Below the pieces are notes generated by a model. It saw nothing but the letters and a program-made list of their open reading frames with translations, made no database searches and was not told where the DNA came from. A DNA stretch of 64,000 nt from Magnetospirillum sp. SS-4. Lineage in GTDB: Bacteria; Pseudomonadota; Alphaproteobacteria; Rhodospirillales; Magnetospirillaceae. This document shows positions 1 through 14,941 of this stretch, one piece after another. The position numbers were made by a program, and so were the translations under genes. Location: the NCBI RefSeq assembly GCF_902729425.1, contig NZ_CACVCH010000001.1, positions 69,501-133,500 on the forward strand. The letters are read 5' to 3'. Each line of letters opens with the position of its first letter. Position 1 is the stretch's first letter.

Positions 1-340
1 CCAGCCGGGCCAGCAACCCGATATCGCCGACGATCAGGGCGTGACCGCCCATTTCGGCGAACCGTCCGGCCAGGTCCAGCAAGACGTCGACCTGCTCGTC
101 GGCGTAATGCTGGGCGTTCATCACCAGCGACACCGTGGCGCCGTGACCGGAGGCGATGTCCACGACCTCGGCCAGGTCCTCGTAGCGGGTCAGGTTGCCG
201 AAGGCGCGCCGGTTGACGCCGGCGCTGCGGAAGCGGTCGGTCCAGTCGGCGGGCACGATGCCGCAATAGATCTCGCCGGCTCCCGCCGCCGCCATCGGCG
301 CCGCCTCCTCGACCCGGCTAATGGGCGCGACGATTTTCAT
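1..340 (-). CDS. U32-family protein, UbiU-like (C-terminus outside window)
   Basis: The visible 113 N-terminal residues read MKIVAPISRVEEAAPMAAAG and continue into EIYCGIVP, the first beta strands of the U32 peptidase-family barrel. A GVNRR segment matches the GLNF turn of UbiU, and ALIVGDIGLLARL matches UbiU's ALILADLAML segment. UbiU and UbiV are iron-sulfur partners in O2-independent hydroxylation of the ubiquinone ring; other U32 members hydroxylate RNA bases. The start overlaps the end of the UbiV-like gene by 23 bp, so the two are probably co-translated as partners. The 3' part, including any cluster cysteines, lies beyond the left edge. Family membership is secure; the UbiU-like role is inferred from pairing and context. 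Confidence 0.75.
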   Translation of the reverse strand, partial: MKIVAPISRVEEAAPMAAAGAGEIYCGIVPADWTDRFRSAGVNRRAFGNLTRYEDLAEVVDIASGHGATVSLVMNAQHYADEQVDVLLDLAGRFAEMGGHALIVGDIGLLARL

Positions 341-1217
341 TCCAGTCTCCGTTGAGGATCAGGCGGTCGATCCAGCCCTTTGCCATGGCGGCGTCCACGG
401 CCGCGGTCATGGCCGGGGAATGCCGGTAGAACAGGGTATTGCCGCGCTGGTAGGTGACGAGATCGGTTCCGTCTCCGTCGCCCGCCTCGCCCCGCGACAG
501 GGTGCCCACGTAGATCAGGCATTCCCGCCGGCATTCCTGGCCGCTGACGAACTTGTCCCCGGGCTCGGCCGACAGCGAGCCGATGCGGCAGGCGCGGCCC
601 TTGACGGAGAAGCCGTAGGGCGCGTGGACCGAGACGCGGACCCGGCCGGAACGGAAATCCTCCATGCGGGCGAAGGGCGGCGCGTCCATCTCGATGCGTT
701 CGACGCCCATGCGGGCCAGCACCGCCCCGAACGGGCCGGAATGGATGCCGTGGGGATAAAGCCGGGTCCACTCGGCCGAGGGCAGGCGCGGGTCCTTGAC
801 CATCTTGCACAGTAGCCGGCCGGCCACCGGAACGAGGTCGGGCCGCGATTCCCGCAGCAACCCGACACAGCCCCAGTCGTTGGCGATCACCTCGGTTCCC
901 GGCGGCAGGTGAGGCAGCAGGCCGGCCAGCGCCTCCATCCCCGCCACCGACAGCACCGGCGTCGCCAGGGCGACACCCAGCCCCGCCGCCCCGACGGCGG
1001 CGACGGCCTGACGAAGCTGGATCTCGGTGGGCAGCAGGGTCTCGCAGAACTCCGAGCCCAGGTGAAAGCGCGTCACCGGAAGGCCGGCGACGCCCTCGGG
1101 CAACGGCACCGCCGGCCAGCCCAACCGGGCAGCGCATTCCGCCACGGTGGGAGCCCCACCGGCCAGCAGACCGTCCAGCAGCCGGGCCTGAACCAGGGTC
1201 AGGGCGATCTCGGTCAT
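318..1217 (-). CDS. U32-family protein, UbiV-like
   Basis: This is a 299-residue U32-family protein. The segment HLGSEFCE puts Cys58 where UbiV has its first cluster cysteine (YLGEAVCSKRR in E. coli). GRACRIG followed by QECRREC supplies Cys210, Cys229 and Cys233, matching the C...CxxxC ligand set of UbiV, although the first spacing is longer than I recall for the E. coli protein. Four cysteines are therefore placed to hold a [4Fe-4S] cluster. The ATG overlaps the stop of the CcmF-like gene as ATGA, so it is translationally coupled to the amine dehydrogenase operon. UbiV homologues normally serve quinone synthesis; here the neighbours build a tryptophylquinone enzyme. A role in that hydroxylation is inference only. 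Confidence 0.75.
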   Translation of the reverse strand: MTEIALTLVQARLLDGLLAGGAPTVAECAARLGWPAVPLPEGVAGLPVTRFHLGSEFCETLLPTEIQLRQAVAAVGAAGLGVALATPVLSVAGMEALAGLLPHLPPGTEVIANDWGCVGLLRESRPDLVPVAGRLLCKMVKDPRLPSAEWTRLYPHGIHSGPFGAVLARMGVERIEMDAPPFARMEDFRSGRVRVSVHAPYGFSVKGRACRIGSLSAEPGDKFVSGQECRRECLIYVGTLSRGEAGDGDGTDLVTYQRGNTLFYRHSPAMTAAVDAAMAKGWIDRLILNGDWNENRRAH

Positions 1218-3139
1218 CTCGGCCTCCCTTGCAACGCCAGCCCCGCCGCCGACAGCAGGGCGAGCCCGAGCCCGCCCCACAACCACGACACCAGCGGGAA
1301 TGTTCTCACCACCACCGGCAGACCGGTGGACAAAGTGTCGTCCACGGCGGGAATCCACACCTGCACGTCCCGCCACAGGCCGCGATGGATGAACGGATCG
1401 ACGGCGCGGGTGGCGGAAACCTGCCGGGCATAGCGGTAATCCAGAATCTCGCAGGCCAGGCGCTGGGCTCCCTTCAGGCCGGCCGGAACCGGCGCCGGGT
1501 CCAGGATGTGGATGGCGCCCTCGCTCCGCTCGATCTCGACGCCGTCGCGATCCAGCCGCCACGTCACCCGAAGGCCGGCATCGTCCGGCGAGACGGCGAT
1601 GCTCTGGCCGTCGGGCAGGCGCAACGGCGCGCCCGCCTGATCGGGCCAGCGGAAGCTTTGCTGCGCCACCCGATCGAATACCGTCGCGGCCAGGAACGAG
1701 GCCAGTGCCACCGCGAGCCCCAGGTGCAGGCCGCCGACCAGGGCCGGTCTCGCCTCGCCTTCCCGGAGGGCGGTCGCCAGCCGGACCAGCGAAGCGAGGC
1801 CGAAATAGGCCAGAGCCGCCCACAATCCGCCGATATGGTCCAATTGGTCCAAGGTGCCGGCGGCGGTCGAGCCGCCGCCCTCGAACGCCCCCGACACCGG
1901 ATCGAGGATCACGGTCAGCGCCACCGCCGCCAGGGCCGTCAGGGACGCGGCGCGACGCTGCCCCCAGGGCAGCAGGACATGGCCGCCGGCCAGGAACAGG
2001 GCGATGGCCGGCGGCAGCAGCCAGGCGTTGATGGCCACCGGATCGGGTTCCCACCGGGCGAAGGCCCGGCGCAATTCCTCCGCCTCGGCGGGCGTCGCCC
2101 AGCGCAGCAGCATGTCAAGGAACGGCTTCAACCGGTCCGGCCGGGGCAGGCGCGACGCTTCCGCCAGCAGGGCGTGGCCAAGATGGGCCAGGGCGATGGC
2201 GGCGCACAGCAGCATTAGGACGATGGCGGCGTCCAGCATGTCGCGCCGCCCGGCCGGGGTGGCGGGGCGGCGGATCAGGGCGGCGACGCCGGCCAGCGTC
2301 AGGACCAGGGCCATCCCCGCCAGCAGCGGCGCCGAGGTGTCGCCCACATAGCGGTGCGACGACGCCAGTTGGGGCAGCCGCACCACCGTCATGGCCACCA
2401 GGGCCAGGATGGCGGCCGCCAGCGCCAGCAGCGGCCGGGCCAGGACGAAGCGTCCATGGGCCGGGGCAGCGTGAAGCTGGGCGGTCAGCACCAGCCATAC
2501 CGCGAAGATGGCGGTCTGGACCGGGTCCCAATGCCAGAACTGGCCGAACGAGACGTCCTGATAGGCCCACCACATGCCGGAGGCGAGGCTGGCGCTCAGC
2601 ACGATCCAGGCGATGCGAGAACCGCCGCCATCCAGCGGGCTCCAGGACCGGGCGTCCGGGCGGAACAGCGCCTCCAGGGCGGCGCCGGCCGGCGCCAGCA
2701 GCAGCGCCAGGGCGGCCAGGGTCAGCGGCGGATGAATCAGCATCCACGGGTTGGCGAGATGGGAATTGTGGCGGGGCGCCGGGCCGACCAGCGCCTCGGC
2801 CGGGGTGGCTTCGAACGGGTTCCACGCCACCGCCCCCAGGGCGAGGCACAGCGCCAGCAGCAGCGCGCCGGGGCCGGCCCAGCCGTCGCGGCGGCACCAG
2901 GATACGCCGGCCCAGGACAGCAGCAGCGCCAGCAGCAGCAACGTTCCCTGATCGCTGGCCCATAATCCGGCCAGCCGCAGCGGCCACGGCTGCCCATGGG
3001 CGGCATGGCGGAACACCAGGGCGTTGCCGATGTCGCCGGTCAGGAACTGGACCGCCAGCAGCATGGCGGCGCCGCTGAGCGGAACCGCCAGGGCGAGGGC
3101 GGTCCAGGCAAGCGCCGGCCGGCCGGACTCAGCTCGCAT
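1214..3139 (-). CDS. CcmF/NrfE-like cytochrome c haem lyase subunit
   Basis: This is a 641-residue polytopic membrane protein, close to the usual CcmF length. NPWMLIHPPL and MWWAYQDVSFGQFWHWDPVQ correspond to the HPPLL and tryptophan-rich WWD haem-handling segments of CcmF. The usual WGGWWFWDPVE is altered to FGQFWHWDPVQ, so this is a divergent paralogue. CcmF proteins attach haem to CXXCH apocytochromes in the periplasm. It is joined to qhpE upstream (overlap 11 bp) and the UbiV-like gene downstream (overlap 4 bp). The operon encodes the dihaem QhpA, so a dedicated haem-attachment role is plausible; CcmF is not a standard qhp operon member as far as I know. Assignment to the CcmF family is strong, its substrate is not known. 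Confidence 0.82.
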   Translation of the reverse strand: MRAESGRPALAWTALALAVPLSGAAMLLAVQFLTGDIGNALVFRHAAHGQPWPLRLAGLWASDQGTLLLLALLLSWAGVSWCRRDGWAGPGALLLALCLALGAVAWNPFEATPAEALVGPAPRHNSHLANPWMLIHPPLTLAALALLLAPAGAALEALFRPDARSWSPLDGGGSRIAWIVLSASLASGMWWAYQDVSFGQFWHWDPVQTAIFAVWLVLTAQLHAAPAHGRFVLARPLLALAAAILALVAMTVVRLPQLASSHRYVGDTSAPLLAGMALVLTLAGVAALIRRPATPAGRRDMLDAAIVLMLLCAAIALAHLGHALLAEASRLPRPDRLKPFLDMLLRWATPAEAEELRRAFARWEPDPVAINAWLLPPAIALFLAGGHVLLPWGQRRAASLTALAAVALTVILDPVSGAFEGGGSTAAGTLDQLDHIGGLWAALAYFGLASLVRLATALREGEARPALVGGLHLGLAVALASFLAATVFDRVAQQSFRWPDQAGAPLRLPDGQSIAVSPDDAGLRVTWRLDRDGVEIERSEGAIHILDPAPVPAGLKGAQRLACEILDYRYARQVSATRAVDPFIHRGLWRDVQVWIPAVDDTLSTGLPVVVRTFPLVSWLWGGLGLALLSAAGLALQGRPR

Positions 3140-3833
3140 GAAGATGCTCCCGCTGCGGTCCCAGATGGGCGGCCGATCGTGTCAGGCAGGCCAGCAGGTC
3201 GTCGTTGCCGGCATCGGGAAATTCGGTCAGCAGGCGGGTCAGGCGCATGGTGACGCGGGCGGTGGCGACGCTGGCCCCGGCCATGACCGGATGCGGCCGT
3301 CCCGCCGGCATGATCAGCCGGGGGCTGGCGCCGAACCGGACCCGCCCGTCCTCCATCAGCGATATCTCGTCACTCTGGCAGCGCCCGTCGCCGGTGACCC
3401 GGACGATGCCGGGATAGGCGGCGGGATAGACCATCTCGCCCATGGCCGGAACCGAGGCCACCAGCAGCACGCCCCGGCGGACGGCCTCGTCGCAGGCCTC
3501 GGCCAGGATGCGGCGATCCTCTCTCAGGCCGAAGCTCATGTTGACGATACGGGCGCCGTTCTCCACCAGCCAGCGCAGCCCGGCGGCGATGGTCACCGGG
3601 GCCGACACGCCCTCGGTATCGAACACCTGGGCGTTCAGCAGCTTGGCCGATTGGTTGCGCTCGGCGATCAGTTCGGCCAGGGCGGTGCCGTGCCCCATCA
3701 GGTCGGGGCGGGCGGGTCCCTCGGCGACCCGGCCCAGCCGGTCCAGCCAGAACCGCCGCGACAGCAGGGTCCGGCCGGCCAGATGCCCCGACAGGCCGGT
3801 GTCCAGCAGGCCGATGATCACCCGCCGGATCAT
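3129..3833 (-). CDS. qhpE: Subtilisin-like protease QhpE for QhpC leader removal
   Basis: This is a compact 234-residue subtilase. The triad is visible as Asp11 in LLDTG, His48 in GHGT and Ser188 in AGASVATA, with an oxyanion Asn in NMSFG. There is no signal peptide or pro-domain, consistent with a cytoplasmic enzyme. In Paracoccus, QhpE cuts the leader from the cross-linked gamma subunit QhpC before export. The gene overlaps the end of qhpF by 4 bp (ATGA), and its own 3' end overlaps the CcmF-like gene. Small size, complete triad and position next to qhpF and qhpC make the assignment firm. Confidence 0.9.
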   Translation of the reverse strand: MIRRVIIGLLDTGLSGHLAGRTLLSRRFWLDRLGRVAEGPARPDLMGHGTALAELIAERNQSAKLLNAQVFDTEGVSAPVTIAAGLRWLVENGARIVNMSFGLREDRRILAEACDEAVRRGVLLVASVPAMGEMVYPAAYPGIVRVTGDGRCQSDEISLMEDGRVRFGASPRLIMPAGRPHPVMAGASVATARVTMRLTRLLTEFPDAGNDDLLACLTRSAAHLGPQREHLHAS

Positions 3834-5488
3834 GCCGCCGACTCCGTCGGACGGCGGATCAGGCCGGCCGAGGTCAATTCCAGCACCAGCGCCGCCCCAT
3901 CCAGGATATCGGCATGGTGCGAGATGACGATGCGGGTGCGGCCGGCGAACAGGGCATCGACGGAAGCGGCGATGCGCCGGGCCGAATCCGCATCCACCGC
4001 CGAGACCGCCTCGTCCAGCACCAGCACCAGCGGGTCCTGCAACAGGGCCCGGGCGAGGGCGAGGCGCTGGCGCTCGCCGCCCGACAGGGCGAGGCCGCGC
4101 TCGCCCACCGGCGTTTCCAGCCCCAGATGGCCGATCTCGGCCAATTCCGCCGCCCGCCCGATCTCGTCGTCGGACGCTTCGGGACGGGCGAGACGGATAT
4201 TGGCGGCGATGGTGCCGGCCATCACCGGACTGTCCTGGGCCACCACCGCCACCCGCCGCCGCAGCTCGGCCGGGTCGAGCCGGCGCAGGTCGATGCCGTC
4301 CAGCAGGATGCGGCCGGCATGGGGATCGTAATGCCGGTGCAGCAGGTCGATCAGGGTCGACTTGCCGATGCCGGACGCGCCCACCAGCCCGACCTTGACT
4401 CCGGCCGGCAGGGTGGCGTCGACGCCGCTGAACACCGGCCTCTCGCCGCCATGGGAAAAGCCGACATCCTCGAAGCGGACGGCGCCCCTGGCGTCGGCGG
4501 GCAGCGCCACCGGGTCGGCGGGGGGGACCACCGCCACCGGCTCGTCCAGCAGGTCGGCCACCCGTTCCAGGCTGACGCGGGCGCGGCGCTGGGCCAGGAT
4601 CAGGCCCAGCAGGGTATTGACCGGCCCCGCCGCCCGGCCGAGATAGACGGTGAAGGCCACCAGGGCGCCGATGGTGAGGGAGCCGTCCATCACCAGGGCG
4701 CCGCCGGCCAGGAACACCGCCGCCGCCGCCAGACCGTTGAGCAGGCCGGGAATGCCGCCGGCCACCGCCGCAAACAGTTCGGCGCGGCGCAGTTCGGCCA
4801 GATAGCCGGCGTTGAGGGCGGCGAAGCGGGCGGCGTCGCGCGGCTGGCTGCCCACGACCTGGGCGAGCTTGACCGATTGCAGGCTTTCCACCAGGAAACC
4901 CGACAGTTCGGCGCTGCGCTCGCGCAGGCGGCGGGTCAGGGTTTCCAGGCGCGGGCGCAGGCGGCGCACCGCCACGACCTGCACCGGCAGCAGCACGAAG
5001 GCCGCCACCATCAGTTCCGGCGACAGCGCCGCCATCACCGCCAGGGTGCCGACCAGCACCAGCACGGCGTTGACCGAGGCCAGCACGGTATCGACCACGA
5101 ATCGCTGCACCTCGGCCACGTCGCCGTCCATGCGCGACAGAATGTCGCCGGTCGGGCGTCGGGCGAAGAACGACGGCGGCAGGCGCTGAAGATGCCCGAA
5201 CACCCGTTCGCGCAACCGGAACAGCACCGTCCCGGACAGGGTCAGGTAATGCCAGCGGTTGAAGGCGCCCATGGCCAGCGACAGCACCGCCGCCGCCAGC
5301 ATCAGGCCGCAACTGGCGGCGACCACGTCCATGCGCCGGGCGATCAGGCCGTCGTCGATCAGGTGCTTGGCCAGCCAGGGCTGGGCCAGGGCCAGGGCGG
5401 ACGACGCCGCCGAGGCGCCCAGCACCAGGACCACCGCCCCCACATGCGGCCGAAGCAGTCCGAACAGGGGGCGGAAACCGCGGGTCAT
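3830..5488 (-). CDS. qhpF: ABC exporter QhpF for the QHNDH gamma subunit
   Basis: This is a 552-residue fused exporter. The N-terminal half has six predicted membrane helices (about residues 15-290) and the C-terminal half one ATPase domain. Walker A is GASGIGKST, the signature is LSGGERQR and Walker B is VLVLDEAVSAVD. In known qhp systems QhpF is the ABC transporter thought to carry processed QhpC across the inner membrane, because the gamma subunit lacks a signal peptide. It starts 4 bp after the qhpB stop and overlaps qhpE by 4 bp. Without the context it would be called a generic MsbA-like exporter. Confidence 0.88.
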   Translation of the reverse strand: MTRGFRPLFGLLRPHVGAVVLVLGASAASSALALAQPWLAKHLIDDGLIARRMDVVAASCGLMLAAAVLSLAMGAFNRWHYLTLSGTVLFRLRERVFGHLQRLPPSFFARRPTGDILSRMDGDVAEVQRFVVDTVLASVNAVLVLVGTLAVMAALSPELMVAAFVLLPVQVVAVRRLRPRLETLTRRLRERSAELSGFLVESLQSVKLAQVVGSQPRDAARFAALNAGYLAELRRAELFAAVAGGIPGLLNGLAAAAVFLAGGALVMDGSLTIGALVAFTVYLGRAAGPVNTLLGLILAQRRARVSLERVADLLDEPVAVVPPADPVALPADARGAVRFEDVGFSHGGERPVFSGVDATLPAGVKVGLVGASGIGKSTLIDLLHRHYDPHAGRILLDGIDLRRLDPAELRRRVAVVAQDSPVMAGTIAANIRLARPEASDDEIGRAAELAEIGHLGLETPVGERGLALSGGERQRLALARALLQDPLVLVLDEAVSAVDADSARRIAASVDALFAGRTRIVISHHADILDGAALVLELTSAGLIRRPTESAA

Positions 5489-5492
5489 GGGC

Positions 5493-6584
5493 TCAGCGCT
5501 GCACCATTCTGATCCAGGTCCCGCCCATGTCGTGATCGTCGGGCAGGCGGATCTCGCCGATCCGCTCCAGCGTCTCGGTGGAATAGATGCCGATGTCGCT
5601 GACCGTGCCGGCCACATAGACCTCCTTGCCGTCGCCCGAGATGTTCAGGCAGTAATAGGTGTGCGGCAGCGTCACCCGCTTGACCAGACGGTTAGTCCCG
5701 ATATCCGTCTTGGTCAGGGTGTTGTAGACCGAGAACACCTCGTTGCGGCGCACCGGGTTGACCACCGACGAGAACATGATGGCCGCGCTGTCCTCGAAAT
5801 CGGCCATGGTGACCTTGCCGGTGGCGAAATCCAGCGTCAGCAGGCCGGTCTTGGCCGCCGACGGATCGGTGGGCGCCACGTCGGTGCGGGCGACGAAATA
5901 GGGGTTCACGAACATCTTGGCCTGTTCGTACTGGTTCCACACCCCGAACACGTCCGGGGTGCCGTAATTGGGGCGGTCCCAATTGGCGACCTTGTCCACC
6001 TTGAGCACCTTGCCGTCCTTGGGATCCAGGGTATGGATGTCCCAGCTGACCGCATAGAGCTTGTCGCCCGCCGGGGCCATGAACAGGCCGGTGGTGCGGC
6101 GCGGAACCGGCAGGATGCGGTCCGGCCTGGCCTTCAGCCCGGCGTCGGTCCTGTAGACGGCGATGCCGACGTCCTGGACCTCGTACTCGCCCTGGCCGAG
6201 GCGCACCGGCGAGCGCATGACGAACAGTTCCTTGCCGTCGGGGCTGACCTCCAGGCCGAACATGTTGCGGGCGCGGATGGCGCCGTCCGACAGGTCGGCG
6301 CGGAACACCTCGTTGCCGCTGTCCAGGTCGATGCCGACCACGCTGCCCCAGTGGTTGGTGACCACATAGGCGATGCGGCCGTCCGGCGACGGCGCGATGC
6401 CCAGCGGTGCCCCCGGTCCGGCGATCTTGTAGGTGCGCGCCACCTTGCGGGCGGCGGGGTCCACCAGCACCAGGGTGTTGGGCTTGGTGGATGTCAGGAT
6501 GTATTCCTTGCCCGACGCGGTGGCGGGCTGGAACGCGAATGCGGCGAGGGCCAGCAGCGCGGCGACGAAGGACTTTGACGTCAT
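5493..6584 (-). CDS. qhpB: Quinohemoprotein amine dehydrogenase beta subunit QhpB
   Basis: This 363-residue protein starts with a Sec signal peptide (MTSKSFVAALLALAAFAF, cleavage probably after about residue 24). The mature part has repeated beta-propeller blade segments such as NTLVLVDPAARKV, GIAPSPDGRIAYVV and VSPDGKELFVM. In QHNDH the beta subunit is a seven-bladed propeller that packs against the alpha and gamma subunits in the periplasm and forms part of the active-site cleft. It lies directly downstream of qhpC with a 14-bp gap. The fold and context agree well with QhpB. Confidence 0.92.
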   Translation of the reverse strand: MTSKSFVAALLALAAFAFQPATASGKEYILTSTKPNTLVLVDPAARKVARTYKIAGPGAPLGIAPSPDGRIAYVVTNHWGSVVGIDLDSGNEVFRADLSDGAIRARNMFGLEVSPDGKELFVMRSPVRLGQGEYEVQDVGIAVYRTDAGLKARPDRILPVPRRTTGLFMAPAGDKLYAVSWDIHTLDPKDGKVLKVDKVANWDRPNYGTPDVFGVWNQYEQAKMFVNPYFVARTDVAPTDPSAAKTGLLTLDFATGKVTMADFEDSAAIMFSSVVNPVRRNEVFSVYNTLTKTDIGTNRLVKRVTLPHTYYCLNISGDGKEVYVAGTVSDIGIYSTETLERIGEIRLPDDHDMGGTWIRMVQR

Positions 6585-6598
6585 GGTCGGGCTTCCCC

Positions 6599-6919
6599 TC
6601 ACTTCTTGCGGTAGACGGACTGAAGCTTGCGCCAGTCGCGCGGCGCCGAGGGCACCTCGGCGCTCCAGTCCGGATGGGTGTTGATGGTGTCGGGCACCTG
6701 GACCGGCCACCAGCACGGATCGGAACAGCCGTACAGGTCGGCCTCCACCGGCTGGCACAGGGCGGCGATGCCGCCGAACGGGTCGACCTCCCAGCCGGGG
6801 TCCAGGGTCGAGGTGCAGCCGCTGACCACCTGCATGACCCGGACCTCGCCTGACGTGCCGGCCTCGGCGCCCTGTTCGACCTGCGCGGCCTTTCGGTTGA
6901 TGGGCTTCAGATGCTTCAT
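6599..6919 (-). CDS. qhpC: QHNDH gamma subunit QhpC, CTQ-bearing cross-linked peptide
   Basis: This 106-residue precursor becomes the small catalytic subunit. Aligning it from memory to the Paracoccus mature chain puts the mature N-terminus at Met29, giving a 28-residue leader. All known modification sites are present. The thioether pairs are Cys35-Glu44, Cys55-Asp61 and Cys69-Asp77, and Cys65 and Trp71 form cysteine tryptophylquinone. The core [17 protein letters not shown] is nearly identical to known family members. QhpD makes the thioether links, QhpE removes the leader and QhpF exports the product. The start overlaps the qhpD stop by 4 bp, coupling the substrate to its modifying enzyme. 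There is no Sec signal, as expected. Confidence 0.97.
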
Positions 6920-8343
6920 GTGTCGCTCCCTCGCGGTCCCGACCTGCGGGCCAAGAAAGTGGGGTTTCCCGCCATGAGTCGGGCATGGATGGCGATGCCG
7001 AGATCCACCCATTCCCGCATCAGGTCGCAGTAATGATCGGTGGGGCGGAACAGGTCGCCGTGGCGGGCATGGGATTCGTGATAGCAGCCGCCGGCGCAGA
7101 GATGGCGGGCGTGGCAATCGCCGCAGAAGCCCTCGGACCGGTCCAGCGCCCGCTCGACGAAGGCGGCCACCGCCGCCCGGTCGATGCCGGTCTCGACATG
7201 CCCGAACGGCGCCAGCTCGCCGCCGGCGAAGCGGTGGCACAGCGTCAGGTTGCCGGCGATGTCCACCGCCAGCAGGGCGACGGCGGCGCCGCAGGGAATC
7301 AGCTTGCTGGACCCTTCGTGCAGCGCCGTCATCATCTGGCCGATATTGGAAAAGCCGATGTCGCGCCCCTCCAGGGCGGCGTCCTGCCATTGTAGAGCCA
7401 GGGCCTTCAGATTGTCGAACACCTCGCGGGTCTCGGAATCGCCCAGACGGAAGCCGGCGGGCAGGCCGGCGGTGACCGGGGCGAAGCCGATTTCGGCGAA
7501 ACCGATCTCGTACTTGAGATGATAGTGGATGGCGGCCACGTCGGTGATGCCGGCGGTCAGGGTGACCCGCGCCCCCACCGGCCGGACGCGATAGCGTTCC
7601 AGCAGGCGCCGGGCCCGTTCCGCCACCACGGCATGGGTGCCGCTGCCGCCCAGGGTGCGGCGATTGCGGTCATGAATGGCCTCGGGACCGTCCATGCTGA
7701 CGGTCAGGGCGAAGCGATGGGCCGCCAGGAAATCGATGATGTCGTCGTTCAGCAAGGTGGCGTTGGTGGTCAGCGAGAAATCGAAGTCCTTGCCCGTTTC
7801 CCGGCCGCGCCGTTCGGCATGGGCGACGACGCGGCGGACGAGGGGAAGCACCGTCAGCGGCTCGCCACCGAAAAAGGTCAGGTTGACCCGCTTGCGCGCC
7901 CCGGATTCACGGATCAGCAGGTCCACCGCCCGTTCGGCGTGATCCGGCGACAGATGGCCGGCGGCGCCGGGACGGGCCAGGTCCTCCTTGTAGCAATAGG
8001 TGCAGGCCAGATTGCAGCCGGTGGTCAGGGTCAGCACCAGACTGGTCAGGCTGTTTTCCGGTAGGGCCGGCCGGGTCCGGACGGCGGCGGCGGTTCCGTC
8101 GGGGCGGATCACGTTCAGGGCGGCGAGATCGCGCAGGGCTTCCTCCACCTCGGCCGGCGGAAAACTTTCGGCCAGGGCTGACAGGTCCAGGCAGCCATCA
8201 TCCGCCAGCCCCCTCACCACCGCGTCGGCCACGCCATCCAGTTCAAACAGGCTGGTGGTGGGGACGTGGAACAGCACCGGCCGGCCGTCCACCTCGATCC
8301 GCCGCGCATCGGCTTGCGCCATTCGCCAGTTCATATCCAGCAT
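6916..8343 (-). CDS. qhpD: Radical SAM peptide-cyclising enzyme QhpD
   Basis: This is a 475-residue radical SAM protein. The cluster motif is [12 protein letters not shown] (Cys110, Cys114, Cys117), followed by FFGGEPL. The C-terminus carries a SPASM-like cysteine-rich region: [32 protein letters not shown] and HYCDLM, enough to hold two auxiliary clusters. In known systems QhpD forms the three Cys-to-Asp/Glu thioether bonds in QhpC. An N-terminal stretch of about 100 residues resembles the peptide-binding (RRE-like) part of such enzymes. The stop overlaps the qhpC start. The ATG at 8343 is preferred, giving MLDMNW; a second in-frame ATG lies three codons on. Confidence 0.95.
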
Positions 8344-8357
8344 GGCCCGACCTTTCC

Positions 8358-9917
8358 TCAGCGGATTTCGGCGTCGTTCCAGCGCTGGGGCGCCACGAAC
8401 AGGTGCGCCGTCCCGCCGATGGTGGCGCCGCCATCGGTCACCGTGGCCTTGACCAGCAGGTTGGCGATGTTGTTGTTGCCGCGTCGGGCCGGATTGGGGC
8501 CGGCATCGGCGGGAACGAAGCGGCCATCGGGACGCAGGACCCCGCCGAACCGGGCATCCTGGTCGTGTTCGGCGATCTCGTCGAAATTGGCGACGCTCCA
8601 TTCGGCCGGAACCGGCCCGATGCGCAAGCCGCCGGCGGTGTAGGCCACCGCGTCGAACTGGGCGTGGGCCGGCGGCACCGGACCGCCATTGCCGCCCAGG
8701 CGGGCGACCATGGTGTCGGGCTCGACCTTCACGCTGGCGATGCGGTCGTAGACCATCAGCCGCGCCTTGGCCTTGCCGATGACGATCTCTCGCGGGCCGG
8801 CGGCGGCCGAAGGATCGGCCGAAACCTGAAGGGTGAGCGAATCGGCGGTGGCGGAGATCACCTTGTCGACCTTGAGGCCGTCGCCGGCGATGGCGGTCTT
8901 GCCCAGATCCTTGCCGCTGACGACGATGCGGGCCGAGCCGCCGGCCTTGACGGCGGCGGGCGACAGACCGGCGATCGCCCCCTTGCCGCGCACCGCCACC
9001 ATGTCGGCGCCGACGGCGTCCTGGTCGTCCAGGTACCAGCGTCCCTCCAGGCGGCGGCCGTCGGCCGAGGCCTGGAACACCTCGCTGATCCGCTCGTCGC
9101 CAAGCCGGGTGGCGCCGCGCCATTCGTAGCCGGTGTAGACCACCGAGCGGCCCTCGCCGGCGGTGGCGGAACCGTCGGCCCAGGTCAGGCTGTAGGTCAT
9201 GCGGTAGGAATCGGCGGCGGCGCGCCTGACCTCCATGCGCCCATGGAAATCACCCTTGCCGGGGCGATGCCCCGATACCGCCCAACTGCCCGACAGGTCG
9301 GGGCCGCGATGCGTCTTCCATTCCGTCCAGGCGGTGGAATCGAAGCCCCACTTGGCGGCCAGCTTGTCGGGCAATTCGCCGGAAATGATTTCCCACCAGC
9401 GGCGGTCGCGCGACATCGCCTGATACTCGGCGGTCGGCCACTGTCCCAGATGCATGTGGGCGAGACGGCGCCATTCCGGGGCGGTGCGGCGCTGCAATCC
9501 GACCCGGGCATAGGAATGGCAACGGGCGCACAGGACCGCCAGTTCGGGATCGTCGGGGGATTCCACCAAGGTACGGCGCTCCAGCCCGTAACGGAACGGA
9601 GCGCTTTCGGACGGCGCCAGCCCCTGGCGGTCGGCGAGATGCTTGACCAGTACCTGTTCCTCGGCCTCGCTGACGATCAGGCCATGCCATTCGCGCATGC
9701 GGCGGACAGTCATGGCCCAGCCCTCGGGCGACTTGCGCTGCTCGTCGACGCGGAACAGCCCCCCCGACCGGGTGCGGGGATGGCAGGCCGAGCACTTGGC
9801 ATTGAGCAGAGCCTCCGCCGATGGCTCCCTGGCCTCGGCCTGCCGGGCCGACGCCAGACCGGACAAGGTCAGAACGGCGACCATCGCCGCGAGGAAACGC
9901 CAGGACGTGTACTTCAT
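8358..9917 (-). CDS. qhpA: Quinohemoprotein amine dehydrogenase alpha subunit QhpA (dihaem)
   Basis: This 519-residue periplasmic protein has a Sec signal peptide (residues 1 to about 29). It has two c-type haem motifs, CSACH (42-46) and CARCH (130-134). The C-terminal two thirds are rich in beta-strand segments, in keeping with the barrel domains of the QHNDH alpha subunit. It accepts electrons from CTQ in QhpC and passes them to a periplasmic acceptor during oxidation of primary amines to aldehyde and ammonia. It follows the aldehyde dehydrogenase gene by 71 bp and precedes qhpD by 14 bp, the order known from other qhp operons. Confidence 0.95.
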   Translation of the reverse strand: MKYTSWRFLAAMVAVLTLSGLASARQAEAREPSAEALLNAKCSACHPRTRSGGLFRVDEQRKSPEGWAMTVRRMREWHGLIVSEAEEQVLVKHLADRQGLAPSESAPFRYGLERRTLVESPDDPELAVLCARCHSYARVGLQRRTAPEWRRLAHMHLGQWPTAEYQAMSRDRRWWEIISGELPDKLAAKWGFDSTAWTEWKTHRGPDLSGSWAVSGHRPGKGDFHGRMEVRRAAADSYRMTYSLTWADGSATAGEGRSVVYTGYEWRGATRLGDERISEVFQASADGRRLEGRWYLDDQDAVGADMVAVRGKGAIAGLSPAAVKAGGSARIVVSGKDLGKTAIAGDGLKVDKVISATADSLTLQVSADPSAAAGPREIVIGKAKARLMVYDRIASVKVEPDTMVARLGGNGGPVPPAHAQFDAVAYTAGGLRIGPVPAEWSVANFDEIAEHDQDARFGGVLRPDGRFVPADAGPNPARRGNNNIANLLVKATVTDGGATIGGTAHLFVAPQRWNDAEIR

Positions 9918-9988: not shown

Positions 9989-11494
9989 TCAATACGCCAG
10001 GCAAACCGACTTGGTTTCGGTATAGCCGTCGATGGCGGCCTTGCCCAGTTCGCGTCCCCAGCCCGACTGCTTGTAGCCGCCGAACGGCATCGCCGCGTCG
10101 ACCAGGCCATGGCAATTGACCCATACCGTACCGGCCTTCAGGGCCGGAGCGATACGATGCACCTTGGAGACGTCGCGGGTCCAGATGCTGGCGGCGAGGC
10201 CGTAGATGCTGTTGTTGGCGGCTGCGACCACCTCGTCCAGGTCGGAATAGGGCATGGCGACCACCACCGGGCCGAAGATCTCCTCCTGCACCACCTTCAT
10301 GCTCGGCTGGGTATTGACCAGGACGGTGGGCTCGACGAAATAGCCGGGCTGGTCCAGGCGGCGGCCGCCGACCACGGCCTTGGCGCCGTCGGCCAGACCG
10401 CCGTCGATATAGCCGCACACCCGCTTGACCTGTTCCTCCGACACCAGCGGTCCCATCTGGGTGGTGGGCGACAGGCCGTGGCCGATGGAGAACTGCTTGG
10501 CGGCGCCGGCGACGCCGTCGATCACCTTGTCGAAGATCGACTTGTGGACGTACAGCCGCGATCCGGCGGCGCAGACCTGACCCTGGTTGAAGAAGATCGC
10601 CATGGCGGCGCCGGGAATGGCGATGTCGAGATCGGCGTCGTCCAGCACGATGGCCGGCGACTTGCCGCCCAGTTCCAGGGTCACCTTCTTCAGGTTGCCC
10701 ATGGCCGCCTGGGTGATCAGGCGCCCGACCTCGGTCGAGCCGGTGAAGGCGACCTTGTCGATGCCGGCATGGGCGGCGATGGCGGCGCCGGCGGTGTGGC
10801 CGTAGCCGGGCAGGATGTTGACCACGCCCTCGGGGAAGCCCGCCTCCAGGATCAGTTCGCCGATGCGCAGCGCCGTGACCGGCGTCTGCTCGGCCGGCTT
10901 CAAGATGGTGGCGCAGCCGGCCGCCAGGGCCGGCGCCAGCTTCCACGCCGCCATCAGCAGCGGAAAGTTCCACGGGATGATCTGGCCGACCACGCCCACC
11001 GGCTCGCGCTGGGTGTAGGCGAAGAACTTGCCGTCCGGCACATAGGGCATCGACACCGGAATGGTGGCGCCCTCGTTCTTGGTCGGCCAGCCGGCCATGT
11101 AGCGGATGAAGTCCACCGCCGCCACGATGTCGAGGTGACGCGCCATCATCACCGACTTGCCGTTGTCCAGCGATTCAAGCTCGGCCAGCTGGTCGGCGTT
11201 GGCCTCGATCAGGTCGGCGAGGCGGTGCAGCAGGCGCTCGCGGTCGCAGGCCTTCATGTCGCGCCACGCCTTGCTCTCGAAGGCGGCGCGGGCGGCGGCG
11301 ACGGCGCGGTCCACGTCGGCCGCGTCGGCCTCGGCCACCGAGGCGATCTGACGGCCGGTGCCGGGGTCGTAGACCGGAAAGGTCTTGCCGGAAACGGCAT
11401 CGACCCAGCGGCCGCCGATCAGCAGCTTCAGCGGCTTTGCGAGGAAGTCCCGGGTGTCCTGGCGAATGGAGCCGAGGATATTGTCAGCTGTCAT
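9989..11494 (-). CDS. NAD(P)-dependent aldehyde dehydrogenase of the amine operon
   Basis: This 501-residue enzyme is the usual length for the ALDH superfamily. It shows LELGGKSPAIVLDDADLD with the general-base Glu, and the nucleophile Cys in NQGQVCAAGSRL. It most likely oxidises the aldehyde released by QHNDH to the acid. It is the first gene of the amine operon. An in-frame GTG at 11503 is possible, but AAGGTGG sits at proper spacing before the ATG at 11494 and would be too close to the GTG. An inverted repeat lies about 80 bp upstream. The exact aldehyde substrate cannot be read from sequence. Confidence 0.93.
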   Translation of the reverse strand: MTADNILGSIRQDTRDFLAKPLKLLIGGRWVDAVSGKTFPVYDPGTGRQIASVAEADAADVDRAVAAARAAFESKAWRDMKACDRERLLHRLADLIEANADQLAELESLDNGKSVMMARHLDIVAAVDFIRYMAGWPTKNEGATIPVSMPYVPDGKFFAYTQREPVGVVGQIIPWNFPLLMAAWKLAPALAAGCATILKPAEQTPVTALRIGELILEAGFPEGVVNILPGYGHTAGAAIAAHAGIDKVAFTGSTEVGRLITQAAMGNLKKVTLELGGKSPAIVLDDADLDIAIPGAAMAIFFNQGQVCAAGSRLYVHKSIFDKVIDGVAGAAKQFSIGHGLSPTTQMGPLVSEEQVKRVCGYIDGGLADGAKAVVGGRRLDQPGYFVEPTVLVNTQPSMKVVQEEIFGPVVVAMPYSDLDEVVAAANNSIYGLAASIWTRDVSKVHRIAPALKAGTVWVNCHGLVDAAMPFGGYKQSGWGRELGKAAIDGYTETKSVCLAY

Positions 11495-11571: not shown

Positions 11572-11589
11572 ATAACCTCTTGTGGTTAC
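11572..11589. promoter_or_regulatory. 18-bp inverted repeat upstream of the amine operon
   Basis: ATAACC-TCTTGT-GGTTAC forms a near-perfect dyad. It lies directly after, and overlaps, the stop codon of the YCF48-like gene, about 80 bp before the aldehyde dehydrogenase start. A near-identical copy occurs at 18404-18421 beside a LuxR-type regulator gene. There is no T-tract on the minus strand, so a terminator is unlikely. An operator is inferred. Confidence 0.6.
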
Positions 11590-12569
11590 GGCTGGGGACG
11601 ATTCACCTCCATGCGGGTGATGCCGCTGTTGCCGGCCAGCAGCACCGCGTTGGCGCCCACGGTCAGGACGGACGAGATGGCGAGGCGGTCCGGCCTGGTG
11701 GCGGCGCTGAACTCAAGACCGGCGGGGCCGCTGGTCAGCACCGTTCCCGCCAGTCCGACCACCACCACGCGCCCATCCTCAAGTTGGGCGGCGCCGCCAA
11801 GCGCCTGGGTGGTCGGGGACGCCAGCGCGGTCCAGGAGCGTCCGTCGTCGGTGGAATGGAACAGCCGCCCGCCCATGGCCGTAGCCAGCAGGGACCGGTC
11901 GGCCAGCACCAGCACCGACCACAGCGACCCCTTGATGGGCAGGGTGATGACCGACCACGACGATCCGCCGTCTTCCGAGCGGAACAGGGCGCCGGTCTCG
12001 GCCGCTACCACGAAGGCGCCTGACGGCGTCACCACGACATGGTTGAGATGCCGGTCGGCGTCCTCGCCCCGCCCCGGCACGACCGGCTGCCAGTCGACGC
12101 CGCCGTTGGTGGTCCTGAGGGCGGTTCCATAGGCCCCGACGGCAAGGCCCCGTCCGGCCTTGTCGAACGCCACCGACATCAAGACGGTGTCGGCGGACGC
12201 GCGATACGCCGGCTTCCAGCTCTCGCCGCCATTGACTGTCGAAAGGATCAGGCCGCCATGTCCCACCGCCCATCCCTGCTCCGGCCCGGTGAAGACGACC
12301 GAGGTCAGCATGGAATCAGCCGGCACGTCGCGGGCCTGGCGCCAGGATTTGCCGTCGTCGTCCGACAGCAGGACGATGCCGTAATCGCCGACGGCGACCA
12401 GCCGGCGGGCGGCCCTGGCGATCTCGGTCATGGGGGCGTGCAGCGCCATCGGACCGCGATGGGCGGGACGCAGAATGGGTGGCCTGGTCCCGTCATCGGC
12501 GATGGAGGGGGTCGGCAGCGACGGGATCAGGCCGACGAGGATGAACGCGAGAAGGGTGGGGACTCTCAT
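11586..12569 (-). CDS. YCF48-like beta-propeller protein
   Basis: This is a secreted protein of 327 residues. A signal peptide (about residues 1-24) precedes repeated units of the form SDDDGKSWRQ, STVNGGESWKP, RTTNGGVDWQP, RSEDGGSSWSV and HSTDDGRSWTA. These are the Asp/Gly-rich turn repeats of YCF48/BNR-like propellers related to photosystem II assembly factor HCF136. In proteobacteria this family often sits beside an RND permease and DUF1302/DUF1329 genes, as here. The ATG at 12569 is preferred over one at 12575 because GGAG is correctly spaced from it. It follows the permease by 11 bp. Its molecular role is not established. Confidence 0.85.
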   Translation of the reverse strand: MRVPTLLAFILVGLIPSLPTPSIADDGTRPPILRPAHRGPMALHAPMTEIARAARRLVAVGDYGIVLLSDDDGKSWRQARDVPADSMLTSVVFTGPEQGWAVGHGGLILSTVNGGESWKPAYRASADTVLMSVAFDKAGRGLAVGAYGTALRTTNGGVDWQPVVPGRGEDADRHLNHVVVTPSGAFVVAAETGALFRSEDGGSSWSVITLPIKGSLWSVLVLADRSLLATAMGGRLFHSTDDGRSWTALASPTTQALGGAAQLEDGRVVVVGLAGTVLTSGPAGLEFSAATRPDRLAISSVLTVGANAVLLAGNSGITRMEVNRPQP

Positions 12570-12580
12570 GTCCATCTCCG

Positions 12581-14941
12581 TCAGTGGGAAACCAGGGGGG
12601 CGCGGATCGGACCGGTGCGCGGCACCAGGGTGTCGATCACCACCGCCAGGGCGGGCAGAAGGGTGATGGCCATCAGCATGTTGATCATGAACATGAAGGT
12701 CAGCAGCAGGCCCATGTCCGCCTGGAACTTCAGCGCCGAGAACGACCATGTGGCGATGCCGATGGACAGGGTCAGCGCGGTGAAGATGGTGGCGACGCCG
12801 ACCTCCATCAGCGATTTCTTGAAGGCGTCGACGATCTCGATTCCGTGGGCCAGATGGAACTGAAGGCGGTTGTAGATGTAGAAGGCGTAGTCGACGCCGA
12901 TACCCACCGCCAGCACCATCACCGGCAAGGTGGCGACGGTCAGGCCGATGGACAGCTCCTTCATGAACCAGTAGCCGAGGAAGCTGGACAGCGTCAGCGG
13001 CACGCAGCAGGCGACGGTGGCGCGCCAGTCGCGGTAGGTGATGAACACCAGGGCGACGATGGTGGCGTAGACCCACAGCATCATCGGCAGCTCGGTGATC
13101 TCCAGCACCTCGTTGATGGCGCCCTGGATGCCGGCGTTGCCGCTGGCCAGGCGCACGGTGACGCCCTCCATGGGATGGGCGGTCCTGAACGCCTTGACCG
13201 CCGCCACCACCCGCTTGATGGTTTCCGCCTTGTGGTCGGACAGATAGATGTTGGACGCCAGAACGGTGCAGTCCTGATTGAACAGGCCGGCATTGTCGGG
13301 GGCGAAGCCCATGGTGCTGGTCAGCGCCTGGGGTTCGTAGGGCAGGGCCGCACGCTTGGGGTGGCCTTCGTTCAGGCCGGAATTGGCGACCTTGACCACG
13401 TTGGGCAGGGCCAGCACCGAGATCACGTCCGGCTGGTTGGCGATTTCCCAGCCGAACCGGTCGATCAGGCTCATCACCGCATGGTTGCCGCACGAATCCT
13501 TGGGAGTCTCGAACACCACCGTCAGGACGTCGAGGCCGATGTCGAAATTGTCGGCGATGCTGGCGGCATCCAGGTTGTAGCGCGAATCCGCCCGCAATTC
13601 CGGCACGCCCGCGGTGACGTGGCCCAGTTGGCGGTCCTGACTCTGCCAGGTGGCCAGCCCCATCAGCAGCAGGCCGCCGATGGCGATCGGCCAGGCGTAA
13701 TGGCGTTCCGCCACCCGCGCCAGGACGGACATCCAGCGCTCGCGGTCGCGGCGCAGACGTTCCACCTTCTCGGTATAGGCCGGCGGGAACGAGAAGCAAC
13801 TGGCCACCACCGGCAGCATCACCAGGTTGGTGACGATCTTGTAGGCGACGCCGATCGAGGCGGTGATGCCCAGTTCGCGGATCATGGGAATGGGAATGAG
13901 GGTCAGGGTGGCGAAACCGACAAAGGCGGTGACCAGGGCCAGGGTGCCGGGAATCAGCAGGCTGGTGAAACTGGTCCTGGCGGCGGTATAGCCGTCGACC
14001 CCCATGGCCACTTCCTTGGCGATGGCGTTGACCTGCTGCACCCCGTGCGAGACGCCGATGGCGAACACCAGGAAGGGAACCAGGATCGCCAGCGGGTCGA
14101 GGCCGTAGCCGAGCAGGGTGAGGGTCCCGAACTGCCAGACCAGCGAAACCAGCGAGCAGACCAGCGGCAGGAAGGTCATCCGCTTGGACCGGGTGTACCA
14201 GTAGACGGCGGCGATGGTCAGCACGAAGGCCAGGGCGAAGAATTCCAGCACGCTGGTGGCGCTGTCGGCGATGTCGCCGATCTGCTTGACGAAGCCGATG
14301 ATCTGGACCTGAAAGCGCTCGTCTCCGAAACGCTCGCGGATCTCGGTCTCGATGCGGCGGTTGAGATCCAGGTAATCCAGCGGCCGCTTGGTGACGGGAT
14401 CGGTTTCCAGCAGGTCGGCCACCACCATGGCGGCGCTGCCGTCCCTGGCGACCAGACTGCCGATGTAGCCGCCGACCACCGTGTTGTCCCGGATGCGGGC
14501 GATGCGGTCCGGCGACAGCCGGTCGGGAGTGACGTCGCCGCCGATCACGTCCTCGGCCTGCAAGCCCTCCTCGGTGATTTCCAGCGACCGGGTGTTTGGC
14601 GTCCACAGCGACTGGACGGTGCGGCGGTCGACGCCGGGCAGGAACATCACCGCCTGGGTGACGTCGAACAGGCGCCGCAGCGCCGCCTCGGTCCAGACGT
14701 CGCCCTGGTGGGGACGCAGCACGACGATGACGCGGTTAGCCCCGAACAGGTCGCCGCGATACCGCTCGAAGGTTTGGATATATTCATGTCCCGACGGAAG
14801 TTGCTTGTCGAACCCCGCCGACATCTTCAACTGGGCGCCGAAATAGCCCATGACGACGGTCAGAACGGTCAGAACGGCAAGAACGACAGCCCTGTTCTCG
14901 AAGAATACGGCCCCGAGGCGATCAACCACCCTCTTGAGCAT
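12581..14941 (-). CDS. RND/MMPL-family membrane permease
   Basis: This protein has 786 residues and about 12 predicted membrane helices, arranged as two repeats each with one helix, a large periplasmic loop and five helices. The second repeat includes AVGIGVDYAFYIYNRL, which carries the conserved intramembrane Asp of RND pumps; the first has FAIGVSHGVQQ at the same place, without the Asp. It belongs to the COG1033 group, shorter than AcrB-type pumps, and its homologues move lipids or hydrophobic compounds. AGGAG is spaced 6 nt from the ATG. It is co-oriented with DUF1302 and DUF1329 genes upstream, but an intrinsic terminator lies in between. Its substrate is unknown; transport linked to amine or alcohol use is a guess from context. 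Confidence 0.85.
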   Translation of the reverse strand: MLKRVVDRLGAVFFENRAVVLAVLTVLTVVMGYFGAQLKMSAGFDKQLPSGHEYIQTFERYRGDLFGANRVIVVLRPHQGDVWTEAALRRLFDVTQAVMFLPGVDRRTVQSLWTPNTRSLEITEEGLQAEDVIGGDVTPDRLSPDRIARIRDNTVVGGYIGSLVARDGSAAMVVADLLETDPVTKRPLDYLDLNRRIETEIRERFGDERFQVQIIGFVKQIGDIADSATSVLEFFALAFVLTIAAVYWYTRSKRMTFLPLVCSLVSLVWQFGTLTLLGYGLDPLAILVPFLVFAIGVSHGVQQVNAIAKEVAMGVDGYTAARTSFTSLLIPGTLALVTAFVGFATLTLIPIPMIRELGITASIGVAYKIVTNLVMLPVVASCFSFPPAYTEKVERLRRDRERWMSVLARVAERHYAWPIAIGGLLLMGLATWQSQDRQLGHVTAGVPELRADSRYNLDAASIADNFDIGLDVLTVVFETPKDSCGNHAVMSLIDRFGWEIANQPDVISVLALPNVVKVANSGLNEGHPKRAALPYEPQALTSTMGFAPDNAGLFNQDCTVLASNIYLSDHKAETIKRVVAAVKAFRTAHPMEGVTVRLASGNAGIQGAINEVLEITELPMMLWVYATIVALVFITYRDWRATVACCVPLTLSSFLGYWFMKELSIGLTVATLPVMVLAVGIGVDYAFYIYNRLQFHLAHGIEIVDAFKKSLMEVGVATIFTALTLSIGIATWSFSALKFQADMGLLLTFMFMINMLMAITLLPALAVVIDTLVPRTGPIRAPLVSH

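Follow-up and report, generated by a model that had tools for sequence, protein, structure and literature searches.

How can an operon for quinohemoprotein amine dehydrogenase (QHNDH) complete its cofactor, cysteine tryptophylquinone (CTQ), where the hydroxylase of the known system is not found? The question is raised by the left end of a 64,000 nucleotide stretch of Magnetospirillum sp. SS-4 (contig NZ_CACVCH010000001.1, positions 69,501–133,500; the window). A tightly packed minus-strand unit located there reads, in order of transcription, qhpA-qhpD-qhpC-qhpB-qhpF-qhpE, a CcmF/NrfE-like gene, qhpV and qhpU, where qhpV (UbiV-like) and qhpU (UbiU-like) are names coined in the present analysis. 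In Paracoccus, QhpG inserts two oxygen atoms into the CTQ tryptophan and both are reported to come from O2 (PMC7876137). A QhpG gene was not found in the SS-4 genome. QhpU and QhpV probably form a heterodimer of the UbiU-UbiV type that needs no O2 to hydroxylate the tryptophan of QhpC from which CTQ is made, and so replaces QhpG or backs it up.

The qhpADCBFE set, previously read from the sequence without database searches, is borne out on the minus strand by NCBIfam and Pfam models (Table 1). QhpA, QhpB, QhpC, QhpD and QhpE all lie above the curated NCBIfam cut-offs, and qhpF is assigned by general families and by position. Adjacent gene ends from qhpA through the UbiU-like gene overlap or are at most 15 bases apart, which points to a single transcription unit. 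In QhpC both residues that make up CTQ, the Cys and the Trp, are present (GCSDPCWWP), and the mature part of the protein aligns with 1jmx_G and 1jju_C, two gamma subunits of solved structure. With the exception of loci L101 and L102, the QhpC rows of the compared loci that carry the pair retain both residues.

A QhpG profile was built from ten QhpG proteins of qhp loci that lack the pair, where the flavin adenine dinucleotide (FAD) motif had served to pick them. Against solved structures it gives 418 bits with 7ctq, the peptidyl tryptophan dihydroxylase, and 124 bits with the next best structure, and is thus specific. On 29 genomes it gives 538–604 bits for the ten sequences from which it was built. 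A genome-wide search of SS-4 shows no match to the profile at 1e-5 and none to Pfam PF04820 at 1e-3. The 16.5 kilobases (kb) to the left of the window (L004) contain no open reading frame (ORF) with the searched FAD motif and none matching the profile; the gene next to qhpU on that side encodes a FIST/histidine-kinase protein. The sequence-only reading had seen no flavin monooxygenase in the cluster, and this stands for the neighborhood and for the genome; its reservation that QhpG may lie beyond the left edge is not borne out by the searches of the 16.5 kb and of the genome at large. In eight further qhp genomes from the family of SS-4, which carry the pair (or, in G517, a contig that ends before the pair), the profile gives 28 bits or less.

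An unrecognised flavin monooxygenase could instead hydroxylate CTQ with traces of O2, and the pair would then modify a different product connected with amine utilization. Other FAD proteins are present, and PF01494 (FAD_binding_3) has one near-full-length match in the genome (positions 1–319 of 349) and seven partial ones. However the near-full-length protein looks by its sequence like a ubiquinone-type hydroxylase and is located on another contig. With no QhpG-profile match in the genome, and with Aromatoleum aromaticum EbN1 reported by title to use QHNDH anaerobically (see below), this explanation is very improbable.

The pair had been described as two adjacent U32-family genes, the second with UbiV-type cysteines. 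The adjacency and the cysteine positions 58, 210, 229 and 233 are exact, but only QhpU matches the U32 family (PF01136); QhpV has no Pfam or NCBIfam match at 1e-3. QhpU is firmly placed by sequence as a U32/UbiU relative. Profile comparison with UbiU gives a 99.9% probability; with the curated UbiU model QhpU scores 72.7 bits and does not pass the cut-off of 440. QhpV is much more diverged than QhpU; the cysteine pattern, the pairing of the genes and a profile match, itself weak, suggest its kinship with UbiV.

The conserved residues can be compared with those of characterized relatives. C58, C210, C229 and C233 of QhpV align with C39, C180, C193 and C197 of E. coli UbiV, which are reported as [4Fe-4S] ligands (PMC6747719), and each is kept in 65 of 66 distinct relatives. 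QhpU positions C179, C186 and C200 align with the UbiU ligands C169, C176 and C193; the fourth UbiU ligand, C232, aligns with QhpU C255 in one of two alignments only. E171, C179 and C186 of QhpU align with TrhP E162, C170 and C177, reported as essential for hydroxylation by TrhP (PMC6599085), and with the Glu-Cys-Cys of RlhA. E171 has an aligned counterpart in UbiU as well, and C200 in TrhP and RlhA. The superfamily pattern of four [4Fe-4S] cysteines and the essential Glu of the UbiU/TrhP type is therefore present, the fourth QhpU ligand being dependent on the alignment. QhpU also has C258, C320 and C326. Among 63 distinct relatives they are found in 59–60 (L077, L081 and L104 lack them, as does L103 for C320), and they are lacking in all three UbiU rows. 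These additional cysteines may leave room for a second iron-sulfur cluster.

A tree of 62 proteins was constructed (25 QhpU, 29 QhpV, three UbiU and three UbiV rows, plus TrhP and RlhA). The QhpU rows fall into one clade and the QhpV rows into another, each at 100/100 support and separate from UbiU, UbiV, TrhP and RlhA; the deeper joins are unsure because the tree flags long branches. Predicted structures (predicted local distance difference test of 87.7 for QhpV and 85.8 for QhpU) served for fold searches only. The U32 structure 5d88 is at rank 1 with the QhpU model. With the QhpV model the search is uninformative, as it gives mainly chitinase-type barrels and has 5d88 at rank 21. When the two sequences were compared with those of solved structures, QhpU had no match below E 0.06 and QhpV none at E ≤ 1.

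The relation to UbiU raises the possibility that the pair serves ubiquinone synthesis, which the sequence-only reading had also mentioned. The SCP2 domain (PF02036, UbiT family) has a single match in the genome, on contig C89, and canonical UbiU and UbiV follow it directly. This ubiT-ubiU-ubiV call is by ORF reading and alignment, with UbiT identified by PF02036; an assignment of the C89 U32 genes as one RlhA gene was dropped in view of the adjoining UbiT and the ORF reading. As the single SCP2 match is on C89, qhpU is not a neighbor of ubiT. The pair is thus not the only ubiquinone candidate of the genome, and this set together with the separate clades makes a part in quinone synthesis unlikely; on the same two grounds the pair was rejected as the ubiquinone system. 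There is still the case of a second ubiquinone hydroxylase that is in the operon by chance. QhpU is a clear relative of UbiU, as this would require, but its UbiU score is far below the cut-off, linkage to qhp is seen in distant taxa, and none of the 11 qhp-free genomes tested from this genus gave a QhpV. A chance location of this kind is scarcely credible.

Linkage was assessed with an alignment of eight QhpV proteins against 84,980 species genomes. This is a pattern scan that misses relatives without two short patterns, and it gave 38 loci. At 23 of the 38, qhpD and qhpC are within the same stretch (up to 21 kb). The 30 genomes behind 31 of the loci were searched for QhpD; 24 have a relative at 1e-60, and 19 are above the curated cut-off. 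For scale, the class panel described below comprises 385 genomes, of which 7 have QhpD. Tests of 18 genomes without qhp, including 11 from the genus of the window, detected QhpV in none. Record titles and gene maps show linkage of the pair to qhp in alpha-, beta-, gamma- and deltaproteobacterial organisms, and the association seen in the window is thus recurrent in several proteobacterial classes. Four loci with the pair (L100, L101, L102 and L224) are very divergent qhp loci. The record titles of three name Desulfobacterales or Deltaproteobacteria, and QhpC has an altered CTQ region in L101 and L102. On plasmids, 26 records have qhpC. A QhpU query matches 11 plasmid records, all at less than 60% identity and none over 80% of the query; in 3 of the 11 an SCP2 gene lies under the match, as in ubiTUV.

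For comparison with QhpG, genomes were drawn by taxonomy and qhp genomes were found in the order (19/317), the class (7/385), the phylum (12/397) and the family of Thauera aminoaromatica (44/297), the latter chosen because the QhpV scan had shown the pair there. Removal of overlaps, and of G509, G1058 and G765, which have QhpD relatives below the curated cut-off and no qhpC in the fetched stretch, leaves 76 genomes. By gene maps and genome searches, 34 have QhpG only, 33 have the pair with no QhpG found, four have both (G1180, G1248, G725 and G716) and in five neither was found. The near-exclusion has a Fisher p of about 1e-11, a value not corrected for relatedness. A genome-wide search for QhpV in the 34 QhpG-only genomes found none. 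Some QhpG rows are less sure: G602, G608 and G609 rest on divergent genes (28–48 bits), and G557 and G965 on a partial QhpG at the end of a contig or stretch. The five genomes with neither are G517 (contig ends in the CcmF-like gene), G313 (5.4-kb contig), G1342 (17-kb contig), G774 and G844, none fully resolved; QhpV was sought genome-wide in all five, and QhpG genome-wide in G517 and G313.

Side observations were made on QhpG-like sequences in these searches. Two genomes with the pair show QhpG matches with one internal stop codon each (G711:C88:3228–4547 and G699:C15:105067–106398), which could be decay or the end of a frame. L055, L056 and L064 represent a divergent qhp type in which QhpC has CFW in place of CWW, and a shorter gene upstream of qhpF matches the QhpG profile weakly (28–48 bits). 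In L065, L066 and L125, QhpD-like radical S-adenosylmethionine (SAM) genes are beside flavoproteins with about 190–210 bits to the QhpG profile, with no qhpC in view; this is perhaps another peptide-modifying system.

EbN1 (G1180) is one of the four genomes with both QhpG and the pair. It has two QhpD genes and two qhp loci, and the pair is at both. At the first locus QhpG is encoded along with qhpADCBFE and a CcmF-like gene, and qhpV-qhpU lie on the opposite strand. The second displays qhpADCBFE-qhpV-qhpU, with no QhpG within the 20 kb read. The abstract of a 2019 study of this organism is said to state that CTQ maturation needs no O2. According to the title of that study, two QHNDHs initiate anaerobic amine degradation in EbN1 (Schmitt et al. 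2019, cited in PMC11231019 and PMC10413684). Since both oxygens introduced by QhpG come from O2, anoxic cells would need a different enzyme, and the pair is the obvious candidate for anoxic CTQ hydroxylation.

A more specific proposal, which we favor with less assurance, is that QhpU-QhpV is an O2-independent peptidyl-tryptophan dihydroxylase, a U32 iron-sulfur enzyme for the building of a protein-derived quinone, that works with QhpD on QhpC, takes its oxygen from a metabolite (e.g. prephenate) or from water, and permits CTQ formation without air, anaerobes included. In the mechanism envisaged for the preferred explanation, QhpD would first crosslink QhpC in the cytoplasm, where this reaction is reported to take place (PMC7876137). 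The QhpU-QhpV heterodimer, with one [4Fe-4S] cluster per subunit, would then act there on crosslinked QhpC and place oxygens on positions 7 and 6 of the tryptophan ring, corresponding to the two O2-dependent hydroxylations by QhpG. The oxygen donor of UbiU-UbiV was unknown as of the 2019 paper (PMC6747719). As hydroxylation by TrhP and RlhA is reported to depend on prephenate (PMC6599085), the donor for QhpU-QhpV may by analogy be prephenate, or the reaction may be prephenate-dependent, with O2 not being the donor. The product would then be cleaved by QhpE, exported by QhpF and oxidised for the last time in the periplasm, the order known from the QhpG system. The operon, the lack of a QhpG match in this genome, the separate ubiquinone set, the clades, the kept ligand and catalytic residues, the recurrent linkage to qhp and the near-exclusion with QhpG are observed; complex formation, the clusters, the substrate, the two hydroxylations and the donor are inferred.

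Several observations weigh against O2-independent hydroxylation by the pair. Genomes with both systems make up 4/76 of the panel. Of the 30 genomes picked for relatives of the pair, 11 also show QhpG, with scores from 239 bits upward (G716 and G725 are in both groups). Strict mutual exclusion is thus ruled out and the pair is not simply a substitute for QhpG. The search for QhpG covered the whole genome in 11 of the 33 pair-only cases and fetched stretches only in the other 22, and a 119-bit match in G702 was taken as another flavoprotein. QhpD was not found at 1e-60 in 6 of the 30 genomes with relatives of the pair, i.e. G698, G704 (whose contig ends inside a qhpA gene) and four whose pairs are 27–32% identical to QhpV. 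The profile comparison of QhpV with UbiV gives probabilities of 18% and 27% only, over 12 and 8 of the 29 QhpV rows. FNR-like sites with at most one mismatch are not enriched: they are upstream of qhpV at 1 of 63 loci, and upstream of qhpA at 1 of 42 pair-type loci vs 2 of 57 loci outside the pair-type list. In the accessible literature no study was found that tests the pair by biochemistry or genetics. It also yielded nothing that joins CTQ with UbiU, with anaerobic degradation or with oxygen-independent formation, or amine dehydrogenase with peptidase U32, but most subscription journals were outside the scope of the search, which is thus no proof that the idea is unpublished.

The coexistence of QhpG and the pair gives a pattern of "either or both". 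A comparable pattern is reported in E. coli for the O2-dependent and O2-independent ubiquinone hydroxylases (PMC10470549). The anti-correlation with QhpG anticipated from the window is thus present but not absolute. Likewise, replacement of QhpG agrees with the SS-4 genome, but given the coexistence elsewhere the pair is better said to replace or accompany QhpG. That the pair hydroxylates the CTQ tryptophan, and that the organism lives microaerobically, both parts of the sequence-only reading, are inferred.

The linkage argues for a role related to qhp but not for which reaction. The pair could assist QHNDH maturation in another manner, e.g. by one hydroxylation, Fe-S supply to QhpD, peptide cleavage, final quinone oxidation or repair, with an unrecognised enzyme performing the rest. 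The genomes with both QhpG and the pair are in agreement with this, and the cysteines of QhpU that are not in UbiU may signify a different chemistry. Also, the U32 family is named for peptidases and some of its proteins are described as such in the sources available. However the accessible accounts connect each of UbiU, UbiV, TrhP and RlhA with hydroxylation (PMC6747719, PMC6599085), the key residues are retained in QhpU, and hydroxylation is the step that is vacant without QhpG. No other gene that may stand in for QhpG was noticed in these operons, although no systematic search for one was made. A different role in maturation is unlikely, though less so than the other alternatives above, and oxygen-independent hydroxylation by QhpU-QhpV remains the preferred explanation.

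As in UbiU-UbiV, the genes form an adjacent pair with a U32 domain (in QhpU) and matching [4Fe-4S] cysteines, and genomes may hold both an O2-dependent and an O2-independent route. Unlike UbiU-UbiV, QhpU and QhpV are in clades of their own, are linked to qhp and not to ubiT, and have a peptide tryptophan as presumed substrate, with C258, C320 and C326 as a further difference in QhpU. QhpG (7ctq) would perform the same step of the qhp system, but is dependent on FAD and O2, and QhpU is unrelated to it in sequence (profile comparison 0.3%). TrhP and RlhA share the U32 family and the aligned Glu-Cys-Cys with QhpU, but their prephenate-dependent hydroxylation has RNA as substrate. The EbN1 dehydrogenases are encoded in operons of this type, and each of the two loci has the pair; the 2019 title, however, concerns the dehydrogenases themselves.

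If the proposal is correct, U32 hydroxylases act on proteins, besides RNA and quinone precursors, and there are named candidate genes for how denitrifiers mature QHNDH without air, a question the EbN1 work reportedly raised. It would also provide a second, O2-independent route to CTQ beside the O2-using QhpG known from Paracoccus (PMC7876137). The operon is in addition a compact system for study of aromatic-ring hydroxylation by U32 proteins, where the oxygen donor is left open in the accessible text of PMC6747719 and PMC6599085.

Table 1. Genes of the qhp operon and of the region upstream of it (window positions).
Gene or product	Position	Strand	Basis of assignment
qhpA, alpha subunit (dihaem)	8358–9917	−	NCBIfam TIGR03908, 567 bits
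qhpD, radical SAM thioether maturase	6916–8343	−	NCBIfam TIGR03906, 591 bits (cut-off 453)
qhpC, gamma subunit	6599–6919	−	NCBIfam NF037958, 162 bits
qhpB, beta subunit	5493–6584	−	NCBIfam TIGR03907, 414 bits
qhpF, ATP-binding cassette (ABC) transporter (permease-ATPase)	3830–5488	−	General ABC families only (PF00664, PF00005); operon position
qhpE, subtilisin-like protease	3129–3833	−	NCBIfam NF049966, 219 bits (cut-off 165)
CcmF/NrfE-like haem-lyase-type membrane protein	1214–3139	−	TIGR00353, 62 bits (below cut-off 569); PF01578, 51.5 bits (above cut-off)
qhpV, UbiV-like, 299 amino acids	318–1217	−	Cys 58/210/229/233; between CcmF/NrfE-like gene and qhpU
qhpU, UbiU-like U32, 360 amino acids	1–340, rest left of window (L004:15758–16840)	−	PF01136, 117 bits
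Aldehyde dehydrogenase	9989–11494	−	Best NCBIfam phenylacetaldehyde dehydrogenase StyD, 715 bits (below cut-off 850)
YCF48-like	11586–12569	−	Pfam
MmpL/RND transporter	12581–14941	−	Pfam
DUF1302	15024–16712	−	Pfam
DUF1329	16730–18094	−	Pfam

The CcmF/NrfE-like gene between qhpE and the pair was overlooked in the sequence-only reading. Similar genes recur at other qhp loci, whether or not these carry the pair, and the protein is perhaps for haem attachment to QhpA.

A DUF1329-DUF1302-MmpL/RND-YCF48 module is upstream of the qhp operon in the window and of the QhpG-free operon of EbN1 (L175:345–6987). It is also found at L060, in G517, where neither QhpG nor the pair was found. The RND and YCF48 members were found at many, not all, loci of pair-type genomes and at no fetched locus from QhpG-only genomes (tblastn, 1e-20). 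Between the module and qhpA is the aldehyde dehydrogenase gene, whose product would be expected to perform the next step after amine oxidation.

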